Of a stretch of 48,835 bases of DNA, positions 23,502 to 30,129 are shown piece by piece; the first letter of the stretch is position 1; the number at the start of each line of letters is the position of its first letter. Both the position numbers and the translations under genes were made by a program. Below the pieces are notes generated by a model. That model did no database searches, had not been told where the DNA came from, and saw only the letters and a list, made by a program, of their open reading frames with translations. This stretch comes from Reyranella massiliensis 521. Its GTDB lineage: Bacteria; Pseudomonadota; Alphaproteobacteria; Reyranellales; Reyranellaceae. Where the stretch lies: contig CAMAYC010000024.1 of NCBI GenBank assembly GCA_945862125.1, positions 1-48,835 on the forward strand, read 5' to 3'.

Positions 23502-24227
23502 ATGACCGACAAAGCACGATCCGAACTGGCTCCCACCGGCGTCCTGCGCGCCGGCATCAATCTCTCCAACTTCCTGCTGGTCACCGGCCGCAGTGCGAAC
23601 GCCGAGCCCGTGGGTGTGTCGCCCGACATGGCGCGCGCCGCCGCCGCGGCACTGGGCGTGCCGGTCCAGTACGTGCCTTTCAAGACGCCGGGCGAACTGG
23701 GCGACCAGGTCGGCAAGAACATCTGGGACATCGGCCTGATCGGTGCCGAGCCGCAGCGCGCCGAGAAGATCGCCTTCAGCGCCGCCTATTGCGAGATCGA
23801 GGCGACCTACATGGTGCCGGCGGGCTCGCCCATCACCTCCATCGCCGACGTCGACAGGAAGGGCGTGCGCATCGCCGTGTCGGCGCGCAGCGCCTACGAC
23901 CTCTGGCTGGTGAACAACATCAAGAACGCCACGCTGGTGCAGGTGAGCGGGCTCGACGCCGCCTACGAGAAGTTCATGTCCGACAAATTGGAAGTGCTGG
24001 CGGGCCTGCGTCCCGGCCTTCTGAAGGACGTCGAGAAGGCGCCGGGGCTAAAGATCCTCGACGGCAAGTTCACCGCCGTGCAGCAGGCCATCGGCACGGC
24101 CAAGGCCAACCTCGCGGGCGCGGCATTCCTCGCCGACTTCGTCGAGAAGGCCAAGAAGTCGGGCATGGTCGCCGAGTTCATCGAGCGTCACAAGGTCAAG
24201 GGCCTGTCGGTCGCCCCACCAGCGTAA
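23502..24227 (+). CDS. Family-3 substrate-binding-domain protein lacking a signal peptide
   Basis: A 241-residue protein with the amino-acid-binding (family 3, type II) receptor fold: [12 protein letters not shown] at residues 12-23, [22 protein letters not shown], and [17 protein letters not shown] at the start of the second lobe. The N-terminus is polar and the domain starts almost at once, so there is no secretion signal and no lipobox. Either it works in the cytoplasm, as a sensor or as an enzyme-like binding protein, or export has been lost. In-frame sequence upstream to 23460 shows no better start. It faces the esterase operon and is followed after 113 bp by the type III PKS gene. Confidence 0.82.
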
Positions 24228-24340
24228 GATGCCCTCACGAGGACGTGACCTCGGGCATCGCCTTTTGGTCACGTTTGCGGGCTTCGCTACCCCTCCAAAC
24301 TGTGACGAGGCCTTGTCCTCGCAATGGGGTACTGTTGCCC

Positions 24341-25393
24341 ATGACCGACCGCGCGAATCTGATCTCGCTTGCCACCGCCGTTCCGCCGCACCGCCTGCCC
24401 CAGTCCCAAGCGGCCGAACGCACGCGGGAGCTGTTCGCCCACCGCCTGCCCGACTTCGGCCGCATTGCCCGCGTCTTCAAGTCGACCGGGATCGAGTCCC
24501 GGTACATGGTCAAGCCGATCGAGTGGTATCTCGAACCCGTGGGCTGGCCCGAGCGCAATGCCGCCTATCTGGAAGGCGCGCAGGACCTCTTCGTCGCCGC
24601 CGCTGAAAAGGCAATGGCCGCGGCCGGCTGCACGGCATCCGAGGTCGACACGATCGTGACCGTTTCCTCGACCGGCATCGCGACGCCCAGCCTCGAAGCC
24701 CGGGTGGCGAGCCGCCTGGGCTTCCGCAGCGACGTCGAGCGCGTTCCCGTCTTTGGCCTCGGCTGCGCCGGCGGCGTCAGCGGTCTTGCGATCGCGAGCC
24801 GGCTCGCGCGGGCGCGGCCCGGTTCGACGGTGCTGATGGTGGCCGTGGAAATCTGCACCACGGCTTTCCGGCTCGACCAGCTCACCAAGGTCAACATGGT
24901 GGCGACGGCGTTGTTCGGCGACGGGGCGGCCGCCTGCGTGCTGCGCACCGGCGAGAGCGGCATCGCTGAAATCGAGGGCGCGGGCGAGCATATGTGGCCG
25001 GATACGCTCGACATCATGGGCTGGAAGACCGAGGACCGGGGCTTGGGCGTGATCTTCGACCGCGACATCCCGCCCTTCGCCGAACGCAACGTCGGACCGG
25101 CCATCGATGGCATCCTCGGCCGCATCGGCGTTGATCGCGGCGCAGTCGATCGCTTCACCTGCCATCCCGGCGGCGCCAAGGTCATCACCGCCCTGGAGAG
25201 CACGCTGCACCTCGACCAGGGCACGCTCGACCACGAACGCGCCGTGCTGGCGGATTTCGGCAACATGTCGGCGCCCACGGTCCTGTTCGTGCTCGACCGG
25301 GTCATGGCGGCCGGGATGCCCCGGCGCACGGTGCTGGCGGCCATGGGCCCGGGCTTCTCGTGCGGTGTGCTGTCCCTGGCGCGAGCGGCATGA
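24341..25393 (+). CDS. Type III polyketide synthase (chalcone/stilbene synthase-like)
   Basis: A 350-residue ketosynthase-fold enzyme. The catalytic triad is visible as Cys142 in FGLGCAGGVSG, His275 in TCHPGGAKV and Asn308 in FGNMSAPTVLF; the His-Asn spacing of 33 matches plant and bacterial type III synthases. Such homodimers extend acyl-CoA starters with malonyl-CoA to make alkylresorcinols, alkylpyrones or related phenolic lipids. The start at ATG 24341 gives the expected N-terminus; the same frame is open upstream but runs through the binding-protein gene. The stop overlaps the methyltransferase start (ATGA). Together with the next two genes it forms a small biosynthesis and export operon. 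The starter unit is unknown. Confidence 0.93.
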   Translation: MTDRANLISLATAVPPHRLPQSQAAERTRELFAHRLPDFGRIARVFKSTGIESRYMVKPIEWYLEPVGWPERNAAYLEGAQDLFVAAAEKAMAAAGCTASEVDTIVTVSSTGIATPSLEARVASRLGFRSDVERVPVFGLGCAGGVSGLAIASRLARARPGSTVLMVAVEICTTAFRLDQLTKVNMVATALFGDGAAACVLRTGESGIAEIEGAGEHMWPDTLDIMGWKTEDRGLGVIFDRDIPPFAERNVGPAIDGILGRIGVDRGAVDRFTCHPGGAKVITALESTLHLDQGTLDHERAVLADFGNMSAPTVLFVLDRVMAAGMPRRTVLAAMGPGFSCGVLSLARAA

Positions 25394-25881
25394 CGCTGAC
25401 GGTCCTTGTCCTGGCGTTCGTCACACTGCAACGCCTGGGCGAATTATTCCTCGCCCGTCGCAACACCGCCCGCCTTCTGGAACGCGGCGCCATCGAAGTA
25501 GCGCCCGGGCATTACCCGCTGATCGTGGGCCTGCACACGCTGTGGCTGGGCGGGCTCTGGGTTCTCGCGCTCACGCGCGGCCTGGCGCCCGATCTTCTCC
25601 TGCTCGCGATCTTCATCGTCCTGCAGGGATTGCGTGTGTGGGTGCTCGCGACCCTGGGGCCGCGCTGGACCACCCGCATCCTTGTCGTTCCCGGCGAGCG
25701 GCTGATCGCCAGCGGCCCCTACCGCTACCTGTCCCACCCGAACTATTGGGTCGTGATCGGCGAGATCCTGGTGCTGCCTCTCGCGTTCGGCCTGGTCTGG
25801 TACGCCGCCGTCTTCTCGATCCTCAATCTCGCCGTCCTGTGGGTGCGCGTCCGCGCCGAGAACAAGGCGCTCGGCCGTTGA
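25390..25881 (+). CDS. Isoprenylcysteine carboxyl methyltransferase (ICMT)-like membrane protein
   Basis: A 163-residue integral membrane protein with four or five hydrophobic segments. The ICMT-family signature GPYRYLSHPNYWVVIGE lies near residue 115, and the C-terminal ending RVRAENKALG matches the cofactor-binding end of the family. In bacteria such proteins lie next to type III polyketide synthases (for example bpsB beside bpsA in Bacillus, srsB in Streptomyces) and O-methylate the polyketide product. The ATG overlaps the PKS stop, and its own TGA overlaps the TTG start of the exporter gene, so all three are probably translated together. Confidence 0.9.
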   Translation: MTLTVLVLAFVTLQRLGELFLARRNTARLLERGAIEVAPGHYPLIVGLHTLWLGGLWVLALTRGLAPDLLLLAIFIVLQGLRVWVLATLGPRWTTRILVVPGERLIASGPYRYLSHPNYWVVIGEILVLPLAFGLVWYAAVFSILNLAVLWVRVRAENKALGR

Positions 25882-27413
25882 GAAACTTGGCGAGGACATG
25901 GGCGGGCTTCGCCTCCATGGCGCTCGGCATGTTCATGGCCATCCTCGACATCCAGATCGTGGTCACGTCGCTGCCCAACATCCAGGCCGCGCTCGACATT
26001 CGGCCGGAGCAGATGAGCTGGCTGCAGACCGCCTACCTGATCGCCGAAGTGATCGCGATCCCGCTGACCGGCCTCCTCACGCGCGTGCTCACCATGCGCG
26101 GGCTGTTCGTTGCCGCCATCTCGCTGTTCAGCCTGGCCTCGCTGGGTTGCGCCGCGAGCGACGGCTTCGCCGCGCTGGTCGCCTGGCGCGTCGTCCAGGG
26201 CTTTGCCGGCGGCGTCCTGATCCCGCTCGTGTTCACCGCCGTCTTCCTGCTCTTTCCGGTGCGTCAGCAGACCGTCGCCACCACGCTGGCCGGCGTGCTC
26301 GCCGTCCTGGCGCCCACCGTCGGCCCGCTGGCCGGTGGCTGGATCACCGAGACCTACTCCTGGCACTGGCTGTTCCTGATCAACATCGGACCGGGCATCG
26401 TGGCTGCGGCGGTGGCCGCCTGGTTCCTGCCGGCCGAGAAGACCGACGTCGCCCACGCAAGGCGCCTCGACCTGGTGTCGCTCGTCCTCATGGCGCTGGC
26501 GCTGGCGTCTCTGGAGATCGCGCTGAAGGAAGCGCCGCGATACGGCTGGGCTTCCGGCCTCGTGCTCGGCCTGCTGGTGCTGAGTTCCGCCAGCCTCGCG
26601 GCGTTCATTCGACGCACGTTCGCGCGCGAGACGCCCATTGTCGATCTCAGTGCATTCGCCGACCGCAACTTTGCCCTGAGCTGTGCGCTCAGCTTCCTGC
26701 TCGGCATCGGCCTCTACGGCTCGGTCTACCTGATGCCGGTGTTCCTGGGCTTCGTGCGCGGCCACGATTCGCTGGAGATCGGCACGATCATGCTGGTGAC
26801 CGGCCTCGCCCAGCTCGCGACGGCGCCGCTGGCCGTCCAGCTCGAGCGTCGGGTCGACGCGCGCCTGCTCACCGCCGCAGGCTTTGCCCTGTTCGCGGCA
26901 GGTCTCGGCCTCAGCGCCTTCCAGACGCGGCTGTCGGATTACGACGACATGTTCTGGCCGCAGATCCTGCGCGGCGCCGCGATCATGTTCTGCCTGCTGC
27001 CGCCGACGCGGCTGGCACTGGGTCATCTCGCGCCCGAGCGCGTTGCCGATGCCAGCGGGCTCTTCAACCTGATGCGCAACCTGGGCGGCGCCATCGGCCT
27101 CGCCCTGATCGATACCGTGATCTACGGCCGCAGCCCGCTGCACGCCGAGCGCCTCGCCGAGAAGCTGAAAGCCGGCGACATCGCGACCGGACGGCTGATC
27201 GGACTGCCCGAGGGATCGCTGACCGGCGCCGCGCCGCAGAACGTCGACCCCGAGACGATCTCGCTCGTCCGCGCGCTGGCCGAAAAGACGGCACTCGTGA
27301 TCTCGATCAACGAGGCATGGGCGATGCTGGCGGCCTTCTCCGCGCTCGCCGTATTGAGCGTGGCCTTCCTGAAGCCCGAACCGGCTCTGCCGGCTAGCGC
27401 CGCTACGGCTTGA
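25878..27413 (+). CDS. MFS transporter, DHA2 (EmrB/QacA) family
   Basis: A 511-residue inner-membrane exporter with about 14 hydrophobic segments. Family motifs are MAILDIQIVVTSLPNI in the first helix, WLQTAYLIAEVIAIPLTG, and the antiporter-type WRVVQGFAGGVLIPL, with GWITETYSWHWLFLINI in the mid-region. Proton-driven DHA2 pumps expel hydrophobic compounds. TTG 25878 overlaps the methyltransferase TGA (TTGA) and gives a short N-terminal tail; ATG 25917 would start inside helix one and is less likely. No EmrA-like adaptor is present. The context suggests export of, or resistance to, the polyketide lipid. The gene ends inside the 3' end of the convergent phosphatase gene (11-bp overlap). Confidence 0.9.
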   Translation: MRNLARTWAGFASMALGMFMAILDIQIVVTSLPNIQAALDIRPEQMSWLQTAYLIAEVIAIPLTGLLTRVLTMRGLFVAAISLFSLASLGCAASDGFAALVAWRVVQGFAGGVLIPLVFTAVFLLFPVRQQTVATTLAGVLAVLAPTVGPLAGGWITETYSWHWLFLINIGPGIVAAAVAAWFLPAEKTDVAHARRLDLVSLVLMALALASLEIALKEAPRYGWASGLVLGLLVLSSASLAAFIRRTFARETPIVDLSAFADRNFALSCALSFLLGIGLYGSVYLMPVFLGFVRGHDSLEIGTIMLVTGLAQLATAPLAVQLERRVDARLLTAAGFALFAAGLGLSAFQTRLSDYDDMFWPQILRGAAIMFCLLPPTRLALGHLAPERVADASGLFNLMRNLGGAIGLALIDTVIYGRSPLHAERLAEKLKAGDIATGRLIGLPEGSLTGAAPQNVDPETISLVRALAEKTALVISINEAWAMLAAFSALAVLSVAFLKPEPALPASAATA

Positions 27414-28707
27414 TCGAGACGCAGGCCGGATCGATCACGGCGTTGGCGATCTCGACGAAGCGCTCCAGCGGACAGGCCTTTTCGCGGGCATAGGCGCTGC
27501 AGGCCGGCAGATCGACGGCCACCATGCCGGGGGGATTGTCGATGGTGAGCTGCGTGTTGTTGCGCAGCTGCTCCGGCGTCTGGGCATAGAAGGCCATCCG
27601 CACATAGCGCTGGCCGGTACTGACCTCGCGCAGCAGCTCGAAGGCGAGCGAACTGCCGGGCGGCACTTCGTTGTCCTGGTAGCCCTTGATCTCCCAGCCG
27701 AGATTGAGCAGGCCGGCGACATTCAGGATGTTGGTGTCGTGGCCCAGCAGCATGCCGAAGCGCACCGACTGGGCCATGTTGGGCGCGCCGGGAAACTTGT
27801 GGCCGTTCTGCAGCGCCGCCACGATCTGCGTCAGCATGTTCGAGCCCATCTGCTGGGCGATCGGCTTGGTCTTCGTCATCAGGTCGAGATAGAGGCGATG
27901 CACCTTCAGCATATCGCGCAGCTTGTCGTCACCACCGAGGCGGCCCCAGGCAACCTGGTCGGACGGCATGCCCTCGGCGCTTTCCTGCAGGAAGATCTCC
28001 GCTGCCATCGAGCCAATGGCGATCGGCCCTTTCATGGCGACGCCGCCGGCCGGGTTGGGCACGATCGCCGGCGCCTCGGCGTTAAGACCGCAAGCCGCCG
28101 GCGAACCCGGCGGGCAGAGCGTCGATTGCAACAGCGAGAGCTGCGGCGCGTACTCGCGCTGCACGGAACTGAAATCGCCGCCGATGCGCGCCAGGATGGC
28201 GGCGCGGTTGCTCGCCGCATCCATCGGGCACGATGCCGAGGGCTGCGGATGGAACAGCGGATCAGGCTTGGTAAGGTCAGCCTGGTGCTTCAGGAGCGGT
28301 GTAAGGCAGCGCATGTAGAGGCCGCCCAGGGTCGAGAGCGCCGCATACTGGTCGCGAGTGTCGAGGTCGACCCACAGCACGACGGTGCCCGGCGCGGCGC
28401 AGACGTTTTCCTCGATCAGCCCGCGGCCGCCGTAGATGATTCGGTAGAACTGCCCCATCTGGTGGCCGAGGTCTGCGCCGCGCGGCGTCAGGTTGCCCGG
28501 CGCCACCGGCCAGGCGGGCCATGGCGCGGCGGCATAAGGCGCGAGCTCGGCCTGGGTCTGCACCGGCGCCAGCACGCTGTGGCGGGCCAGCATCACCACC
28601 CGTTCGGTCTGCCAGCCCGGCGGGATCAACGGGACCTGGGCTCGGGCCGGCGCGAGGCCCGCCATCAGCAGCGACACGAGAACGGCGGCGAACAAACGAA
28701 ATTTCAT
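27403..28707 (-). CDS. Histidine acid phosphatase-like protein (AppA/phytase family) with altered RHGxR motif
   Basis: A 434-residue secreted protein with a signal peptide (residues 1-23, ending ARAQ). The order of segments follows periplasmic AppA/Agp phosphatases: an N-terminal RH motif, WPAWPVAPGNLTPRGADLGHQMG, and the C-terminal GHDTNI, which carries the His-Asp proton-donor pair. The first motif reads RHSVLAP (R42, H43), so the nucleophilic His is kept, but Gly is Ser and the second Arg is Leu46. That Arg normally binds phosphate, so activity may be weak or specificity changed. Six or so cysteines suggest disulfides. It lies 87 bp downstream of the FAD oxidase on the same strand, probably a separate unit. 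Confidence 0.85.
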   Translation of the reverse strand: MKFRLFAAVLVSLLMAGLAPARAQVPLIPPGWQTERVVMLARHSVLAPVQTQAELAPYAAAPWPAWPVAPGNLTPRGADLGHQMGQFYRIIYGGRGLIEENVCAAPGTVVLWVDLDTRDQYAALSTLGGLYMRCLTPLLKHQADLTKPDPLFHPQPSASCPMDAASNRAAILARIGGDFSSVQREYAPQLSLLQSTLCPPGSPAACGLNAEAPAIVPNPAGGVAMKGPIAIGSMAAEIFLQESAEGMPSDQVAWGRLGGDDKLRDMLKVHRLYLDLMTKTKPIAQQMGSNMLTQIVAALQNGHKFPGAPNMAQSVRFGMLLGHDTNILNVAGLLNLGWEIKGYQDNEVPPGSSLAFELLREVSTGQRYVRMAFYAQTPEQLRNNTQLTIDNPPGMVAVDLPACSAYAREKACPLERFVEIANAVIDPACVSIKP

Positions 28708-28794: not shown

Positions 28795-30129
28795 TCAGCC
28801 TGCCGTCGCGCGGTCCCACCAGTCGCGGGTACGGTACCAGGCGCCCACGAAGGGCAGCACCCATTCGGGATTGCCGTTGTAGAACGGCACGGTCGGAAAC
28901 GGCTGGCCGTCGAAGGCATTGATCGGCGCGTTCGAGCCGCCGGCAATCTTCTTCGCCGTCTGGTAGCCGAGATAGCTCATCATCGCCACACCGGAGCCGT
29001 TGCACGCCATCAGGTAGTGCATGCCCTGCTCCTGGCCCATGTGCGGCATGAAGTCGAAGGCGAAGGCCACGTTGCCCGTCCAGGCATGTGTCACCTTGGT
29101 GCCCTTCAGCTGCGGCCAGCGCTCGAGCATGTAACCGTGCAGCACCGGCGCACTCACCTCGGGCGCCACCTGGGTGAAGCGGGCGCGGCCGCCGAAGATC
29201 ACGCGCTTGTTGTCGGGCGACTGCCGGTAATAGCAGAGTACGCGCTTGGTGTCGGAGACGACGCGGTTCTTGGGAATGAGGCTCTGCACGAGATCCTCGG
29301 GCAGTTCCTCGGTGGCGATGATGTGGCTCGCCACCGGCACCAGCTTGCGCTTCAAGGTCGGCGTGAGATCGGTGGTGTAGCCGTTGGTGGCGATCACCAC
29401 CTCGCGCGCCTCGATCGGGCCCTTGTTGGTGAGGATGCGGAAACCGCCGGCCTTGCGTTCGATCTTCTCGGCATCGCACTGGGCGCAGAGCCTGGCTCCG
29501 GCACGGCTCGCCGCCTTCAGCAGGCCACCGTAATAGAGCGCGGGGTGGAGCTGGCCGGTGCGCTCCACCACCATGCCGCCATAGTAATAGTCCGAAGCGA
29601 TCTCCGCGCGCTGCTGCTCGCGCGGCACCATGTAGGTGCCGAGCGCCGCCTTCTCGTTGTAGGTCGCGACCTTCGCCGCCTGCTCCGCATAGTGACGCGG
29701 CGTATAGGCGCCGCTGAAGCGGCCATTCATGCGCCAGTAGCACTCGATGCCTTCGCGCTGGATCACCGTTTCGACTTGCGCAAGGGAATCCGCGGCGTCG
29801 GCCAGCATGCGCGCCATCACCGCCTTCCAGGCCTCGGCGTCGCCGCCGACACCCTTGCCGGAAAAGCCCTTGCCCATCGTCGTGCCGCCGCTGACGCCGC
29901 CGCCGTTGCGCGTGCTGGCGCCGACGCCGAACTCGCCGCGCTCCAGCACCGTCACTTCGACTCCCGATCGCGCCAGCTCGAGGGCGGTCGAGAGGCCGCC
30001 GTAGCCCGCGCCCACCACCAGCACATCAGTTTTCAGCGGCGGGTCCTGGCTCAGCTCGTTCGTGGGATGCCACCATTCCCACCACCAGGGCATCGCCTTG
30101 AAGTCCTTGTGGAATACGCTGTCGGCCAT
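28795..30129 (-). CDS. FAD-dependent amine oxidoreductase (DadA/PuuB-like)
   Basis: A 444-residue flavoprotein. After a Trp-rich N-terminus (PWWWEWW) comes the FAD-binding VLVVGAGYGGLS (GAGYGG at residues 40-45) and FGVGASTRNGGGVSGG, the isoalloxazine-contacting stretch of the DAO family; a second nucleotide-contact region is REVVIATNGYTTDLTP. The nearest known roles are gamma-glutamylputrescine oxidase and D-amino-acid dehydrogenase. It is the last gene of a PotABCD-like ABC operon, 9 bp after the permease, so it probably oxidises the imported amine. A paralogue sharing WWE, STRxGG, YHGGM/YYGGM and VIATEELPE is encoded at 40311-41648. Confidence 0.92.
   Translation of the reverse strand: MADSVFHKDFKAMPWWWEWWHPTNELSQDPPLKTDVLVVGAGYGGLSTALELARSGVEVTVLERGEFGVGASTRNGGGVSGGTTMGKGFSGKGVGGDAEAWKAVMARMLADAADSLAQVETVIQREGIECYWRMNGRFSGAYTPRHYAEQAAKVATYNEKAALGTYMVPREQQRAEIASDYYYGGMVVERTGQLHPALYYGGLLKAASRAGARLCAQCDAEKIERKAGGFRILTNKGPIEAREVVIATNGYTTDLTPTLKRKLVPVASHIIATEELPEDLVQSLIPKNRVVSDTKRVLCYYRQSPDNKRVIFGGRARFTQVAPEVSAPVLHGYMLERWPQLKGTKVTHAWTGNVAFAFDFMPHMGQEQGMHYLMACNGSGVAMMSYLGYQTAKKIAGGSNAPINAFDGQPFPTVPFYNGNPEWVLPFVGAWYRTRDWWDRATAG

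Follow-up and report, generated by a model that had tools for sequence, protein, structure and literature searches.

A type III polyketide synthase, an ICMT-family methyltransferase and a synthase-linked DHA2 pump encoded together in Reyranella massiliensis

Closest described systems and the three-gene unit

The described systems closest to the locus presented here pair a type III polyketide synthase (PKS) with a methyltransferase. The locus itself is a unit of three overlapping genes, coding for a type III PKS, an ICMT-family methyltransferase and a DHA2-type MFS pump, in a 48,835-nucleotide stretch of DNA (the window, meaning this whole stretch) on contig CAMAYC010000024.1 of Reyranella massiliensis 521. 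The source is a soil and water bacterium whose genome assembly spans 5.2 Mb on 271 contigs. BpsA and BpsB of Bacillus subtilis are reportedly a type III PKS and an ICMT-like methyltransferase, and both BpsB and SrsB are said to O-methylate polyketide products. The Bps pair is likened to the window genes by description and not by sequence, and its unit is not known to include a pump. SrsABC of Streptomyces griseus and the clusters of Roseomonas consist of a PKS, a methyltransferase and an FAD monooxygenase. They share the synthase and the methyltransferase with the window but include a hydroxylase or FAD monooxygenase, whereas the window unit has a pump instead; as the preliminary description of this DNA stated, no hydroxylase or FAD hydroxylase lies within the unit or directly adjoins it.

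To our knowledge, few natural products of alphaproteobacterial type III PKSs are known, and no methylated pyrone or resorcinol of this kind has been given an export step. A literature search, covering mainly open-licence papers and therefore weak as evidence of absence, found no description of this unit or of a dedicated exporter for a type III PKS of Alphaproteobacteria. The Roseomonas clusters are alphaproteobacterial, and the metabolite of the Rhodospirillales type III PKS is given as unknown (PMC8776678). RpsA of Rhodospirillum centenum, also an alphaproteobacterial type III PKS, uses C6-C20 acyl-CoAs (PMC6274091); it is likened to the window synthase by description and not by sequence. 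The mere presence of a transporter next to a type III PKS is not novel, since clusters that combine such a synthase with RND, MFS or ABC transporters have been described in cyanobacteria; these clusters are larger than the window unit, and the accessible part of that source describes no dedicated pump lineage (PMC8086630). The synthase-ICMT core pair is already known, and what is new here is a dedicated pump lineage. From the sequence comparisons presented below, the pump is regarded as a dedicated partner of the synthase, belonging to a lineage found almost only in genomes that carry the synthase.

The three genes are located on the forward strand in the order synthase, methyltransferase, pump, and their coordinates and overlaps in the preliminary description are exact. 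The synthase gene (24341-25393, 350 residues) ends with the TGA stop at 25391-25393, and the ICMT gene (25390-25881, 163 residues) starts with the ATG at 25390, so that the two share the sequence ATGA at 25390-25393. The ICMT stop TGA at 25879-25881 and the in-frame TTG at 25878 create the second overlap, TTGA at 25878-25881, from which the pump gene runs to 27413 (511 residues from this TTG). Further in-frame starts of the pump are TTG 25887 and ATG 25917. TTG 25878 is not a chance reading, because four close relatives (loci L032-L035) have TTG, TTG, TTG and GTG at the identical -4 position. Several of the other relatives inspected have ATG or GTG at this position, and a few begin elsewhere. 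For all loci, a -4 overlap is possible at 126/165 synthase/ICMT junctions and at 32/54 ICMT/MFS junctions, which are upper counts because the possible start nearest to -4 was chosen. The -4 overlap is thus kept in relatives while the start codon of the pump differs.

The synthase passes the curated cut-offs of both CHS domain models (N, 87.2 bits; C, 60.8 bits; cut-off 27 for each). The Cys142-His275-Asn308 triad, previously noted as intact, is unchanged throughout two alignments, one of 9 and one of 26 sequences (the window sequence included), and aligns with Cys169, His308 and Asn341 of 2-pyrone synthase. The nearest named records by synthase are a metagenome-assembled genome (MAG) of Reyranella massiliensis and other Reyranella-like MAGs, with 80% identity. 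The methyltransferase, METHYLTRANSFERASE, has 163 residues, five long helices in the model, and the invariant fragment His116-Pro-Asn-Tyr119 (HPNY) together with the conserved residues Glu125, Arg153 and Glu157. It scores 88.0 bits with PF04140 (cut-off 24). The model has a pLDDT of 88.7, and its nearest fold, Ma-ICMT (PDB code 4a2n), is a weak match (Foldseek E 0.077, TMq 0.67).

For comparison, loci were gathered by synthase similarity. Thirteen redundant loci were removed (191 to 178), as were six with a partial or broken synthase (L072-L076, L217), and this left 172 full-length non-redundant synthase loci. The ICMT gene adjoins the synthase gene in 165 of them. The seven loci without it are L077, L095, L099, L108, L132, L188 and L214, two of which (L108, L214) are cut by contig ends. 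On this comparison the synthase-ICMT pair is the constant core of the unit. An adjacent PKS-ICMT pair, with a synthase 38% identical to that of the window, is also found on a plasmid labelled Stenotrophomonas rhizophila (L192, CP031730.1). The PKS match statistics of L192 are nearly equal to those of H90 (Lysinibacillus fusiformis), although the plasmids are differently labelled, and these records are possibly mislabelled or contaminated. In L105 (Rhizobium sp. Root1203) the ICMT matches as two separate pieces, which could be due to recent decay or a sequencing error.

The pump lineage and its tie to the synthase

The pump scores 385.3 bits with the EmrB/DHA2 model TIGR00711 (cut-off 230.2) over residues 12-498. 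It adjoins the synthase-ICMT pair in 60 of the 172 loci: 25/42 in Reyranellaceae, 28/69 in named contigs, 5/56 in the class sample and 2/5 on plasmids. The named contigs come from the best 80 of 576 matches and are for this reason not a random sample. The pump-bearing groups include Reyranellaceae, Bradyrhizobium, Rhizobium, Phyllobacterium and Sphingomonas, among others. The arrangement is colinear in 54 of the 60 loci; two have one inserted gene and four are divergent. Since all three layouts occur, the link between the pump and the pair survives rearrangement. Public annotation also shows the trio on plasmids from Phyllobacterium sp. 628 and Rhizobium sp. BG4; in Sphingomonas sp. R1 its arrangement is divergent. 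In these counts L119, with a split pump frame, and L134, with a pump cut by a contig end, were taken as loci without a pump. The pump of L119 (Bradyrhizobium sp. STM 3809) matches as two separate pieces; here too, recent decay or a sequencing error is possible.

The phylogeny of the pump supports its close association with the synthase. All trees were calculated with FastTree, and one contig-cut pump was excluded from the pump trees. With a support of 100, the pump clade contains 59 linked pumps, three unlinked pumps from synthase genomes and one orphan. The clade is separate from 34 further MFS proteins drawn from six genomes (that of the window itself, G004, G010, G011, G071 and G114). Twenty pumps of the next tier (of 42 tier matches) were added to the tree; they formed their own group with a support of 92, and the pump clade still stands. 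The window pump lies within the EmrB/DHA2 family but in its own synthase-tied clade. The distances in the trees are correlated for synthase and pump (r 0.83, permutation maximum 0.27, 59 loci) and for synthase and ICMT (r 0.75, permutation maximum 0.23).

The same association is seen in whole genomes. Synthases of this kind are common in Alphaproteobacteria: a type III PKS match is present in 84 of 385 sampled genomes, and a close synthase in 68; the 16 genomes omitted from the close set have matches of at most 292 bits, and none of them carries the pump clade. Pumps of the clade, taken at 672 bits or more (the next match has 549), occur in 11 of the 385 genomes, and all 11 have a close synthase (Fisher p 2.6e-9, relatedness ignored). 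The sister pump tier, used as a control, has no such association: the synthase is found in 8/41 genomes with it and in 60/344 without it (p 0.44). In Reyranellaceae the synthase is present in 26 of 27 pump genomes and in 45 of 75 genomes overall (p 4e-7, again with relatedness ignored). It is important to note that in three of the 11 genomes (G131, G135 and G423) the pump is on a separate contig, with no synthase or ICMT gene in the stretch fetched, so the tie between pump and synthase is not only physical. The G135 contig breaks off some 530 bases short of the pump.

These results bear on two claims of the preliminary description. The coupling of the pair to a DHA2 pump proved to be a specific tie of the pump to the synthase, and the unit formed by the three genes is real and conserved. 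The refuting observation named in that description, an MFS gene not conserved next to the pair in related genomes, was not borne out, although the pump is absent beside the pair in most loci (112 of 172).

Several observations weigh against reading the three genes as one unit for making, modifying and exporting a polyketide. The 112 loci without a pump beside the pair, 15 of which (L134 among them) are cut by contig ends, and the at least 15 changes of pump presence on the synthase tree imply that many species can do without this pump or have replaced it. Alternative third genes exist: in 22 Rhizobium-type loci the place of the pump, after ICMT and on the same strand, is taken by a DAO-type FAD oxidoreductase. 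This gene lies at +1614 to +2874 from the synthase in L124 (PF01266, 214 bits, Pfam on this one locus). Such loci have more in common with the known clusters of synthase, methyltransferase and oxidoreductase. The Fisher and permutation tests ignore relatedness, and the 11 pump genomes represent five family codes; the gap between 672 and 549 bits was picked after the list had been seen. The Reyranella MAG G055 (85% complete, 7% contaminated) has the pump without the synthase. Its pump sits among genes that resemble, by eye, the housekeeping genes sec, nlpD and surE, and in pieces of more than 100 bases this DNA is 67-74% identical to Reyranella and 67-73% to another genus of the family, hence no nearer to the former than to the latter. 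The contig is possibly foreign (contamination). A search of 24100-27600 for sigma-70-like promoters and for terminators gave none above chance. Finally, a Tn5 mutant of the type III PKS BRADO0151 of Bradyrhizobium ORS278, which may or may not be an orthologue of the window synthase, had normal symbiosis (PMC3899966).

Proposed function and alternative readings

We infer the chemistry of the unit, the substrate of the pump and the direction of transport as follows. The unit probably makes, O-methylates and exports one class of pyrone- or resorcinol-type polyketide. The synthase would load an acyl starter, lengthen the chain on Cys142 by malonyl (or methylmalonyl) units and cyclize it to a pyrone or a resorcinol; polyketide formation is predicted from the family and the fold. 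The membrane ICMT-like enzyme may then O-methylate the product with S-adenosylmethionine, as the pairing of the two genes suggests, and the DHA2 pump would carry this product across the inner membrane. An HlyD_3 query from Bradyrhizobium, representing an EmrA-type adaptor, matched none of the neighbouring genes called in the window (-4.5 to +6.5 kb); its matches were solely L133, L145, L146, L152 and, weakly, L104. Because no adaptor of this type was found beside the window pump, the product is more likely delivered to the periplasm, or to the outer side of the inner membrane, than to the medium. An alkylpyrone or alkylresorcinol is just one possibility for the product. The earlier proposal of a product that harms its own producer found no support.

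A reading which comes somewhat short of an even chance takes the product for a membrane lipid, a methylated alkylpyrone or alkylresorcinol formed in stress or dormancy and not secreted, with the pump as a flippase to the outer leaflet or the envelope. The structure of the synthase is relevant here. The closest solved structure by both sequence and fold is that of Pks11 (PDB codes 4jao and 4jat, 31-32% identity), an alkylpyrone synthase of Mycobacterium tuberculosis, which belongs to a different phylum from the window host. The match with 4jat (Z 45.6, rmsd 2.1 over 341 residues) corresponds to a type III PKS fold, and CylI, solved with a resorcinol product, ranks after Pks11. The motif IMGW (residues 225-228) is common to the window synthase and Pks11 but absent from THNS, CylI and 2-pyrone synthase. 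A small residue, Ala175, is located at what we take to be the position of Thr197 in CHS, and Val237 and Trp228 are at the positions that are presumably Phe265 and Gly256. However, the fold leans to acyl starters and no more, because the whole family has it and the type III PKS structures lie within a few Z units of each other. The synthase model has a pLDDT of 86.6, but its weakest stretch is residues 225-240, which includes Val237 and Trp228 and limits the reading of the active site.

Some gene neighbours are also consistent with a membrane lipid, as is the absence of an adaptor match next to the window pump. In L200 and L202 a gene resembling fatty-acid desaturase/AlkB lies between ICMT and the pump (assigned by Pfam in L200 and by eye in L202), and some plasmid copies have BON, CBS, PRC-barrel or DUF883 genes on their flanks. 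Three Bradyrhizobium loci (L133, L145 and L152; Pfam on L133) have upstream genes for an HlyD/EmrA-type protein and another MFS protein; in L146 both lie downstream, and L138 has the additional MFS gene upstream. These added adaptor, MFS and desaturase-like genes fit export and a lipid-like product but prove neither. An EcfG-like motif, GGAAC-N15-18-YGTT (which we take to be the consensus), precedes the synthase in nine loci (L034, L035, L094, L100, L114, L125, L189, L190 and L213) out of 171, compared with 1.6 expected. The control rate comes from whole loci and is unmatched for intergenic composition, so that an EcfG-type promoter stays a lead; moreover, the motif is missing in front of the window synthase, and no lipid of this type is known here.

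It is also possible, but unlikely, that the product is a larger aromatic pyrone, built by the synthase from acetyl- and malonyl-CoA in the manner of RePKS, an enzyme of Rhizobium etli, and that ICMT methylates and the pump secretes it. R. etli plasmid synthases are 65-66% identical to that of the window (65.7% for the one on p42d of CFN 42), and RePKS condenses one acetyl-CoA with six malonyl-CoA to a heptaketide pyrone in vitro (PMC6274091). However, the cited section does not name the R. etli locus of RePKS, which may or may not be the p42d copy, and RePKS also yields tri- and tetraketide pyrones from C4-C18 acyl-CoAs (PMC6274091). In addition, the p42d copy has no annotated ICMT or pump alongside. 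A general drug-efflux protein co-transcribed by chance would agree with the match to the general EmrB model and with the many loci that have no pump, but this is highly improbable in view of the separate clade, the co-occurrence even when unlinked and the unassociated sister tier.

The export of one class of methylated polyketide by a pump of this lineage may have a wider meaning, which we propose with considerable reserve. Alphaproteobacteria might possess an exporter lineage dedicated to type III polyketides, in which a pump that co-evolved with the synthase deliberately moves a methylated pyrone or resorcinol out of the cytoplasm, where this product would modify the envelope as a lipid or act as a secreted signal. 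The near confinement of the pump to one synthase subfamily provides a genetic handle on the destination and role of the product. The question of destination is testable by single-gene deletion in cultured Rhizobium or Phyllobacterium.

Neighbouring genes and further observations

The pump is the most frequent gene after the pair (the 60 loci above), though other recurrent followers exist; two further small groups follow ICMT in four and three loci of the class sample. Clusters resembling ABC ATPases (42 loci) and SDR proteins (26 loci), identified by eye from one sequence each, were considered as third genes and rejected, as their positions or strands are mixed. In three loci of the Reyranellaceae genus g5 (L065, L066 and L067), a protein with BTAD and alpha/beta-hydrolase domains is encoded between the divergent pump and synthase genes, a secreted-looking TPR protein between synthase and ICMT, and a convergent FAD_binding_3 (UbiH-like) protein downstream (Pfam on the L067 copies). 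A divergent gene for a secreted-looking TPR protein, at about -740 to -150 on the minus strand, is present in 17 loci (Rhizobium, for example L156, L155, L140 and L123). The Rhizobium protein is 24-36% identical to the TPR protein of g5 and has a similar ending, LCxxGCxE, although similarity between TPR proteins can be promiscuous.

In the window, a gene of solute-binding protein family 3 (23502-24227) is located upstream of the synthase gene; such a gene precedes the unit in 4 of 46 Reyranellaceae loci. Downstream of the pump is a convergent His_Phos_2 gene, and beyond it a DAO-type FAD oxidoreductase gene (28795-30129) on the opposite strand. The pump gene and the convergent gene that follows it share 11 bases, 27403-27413.

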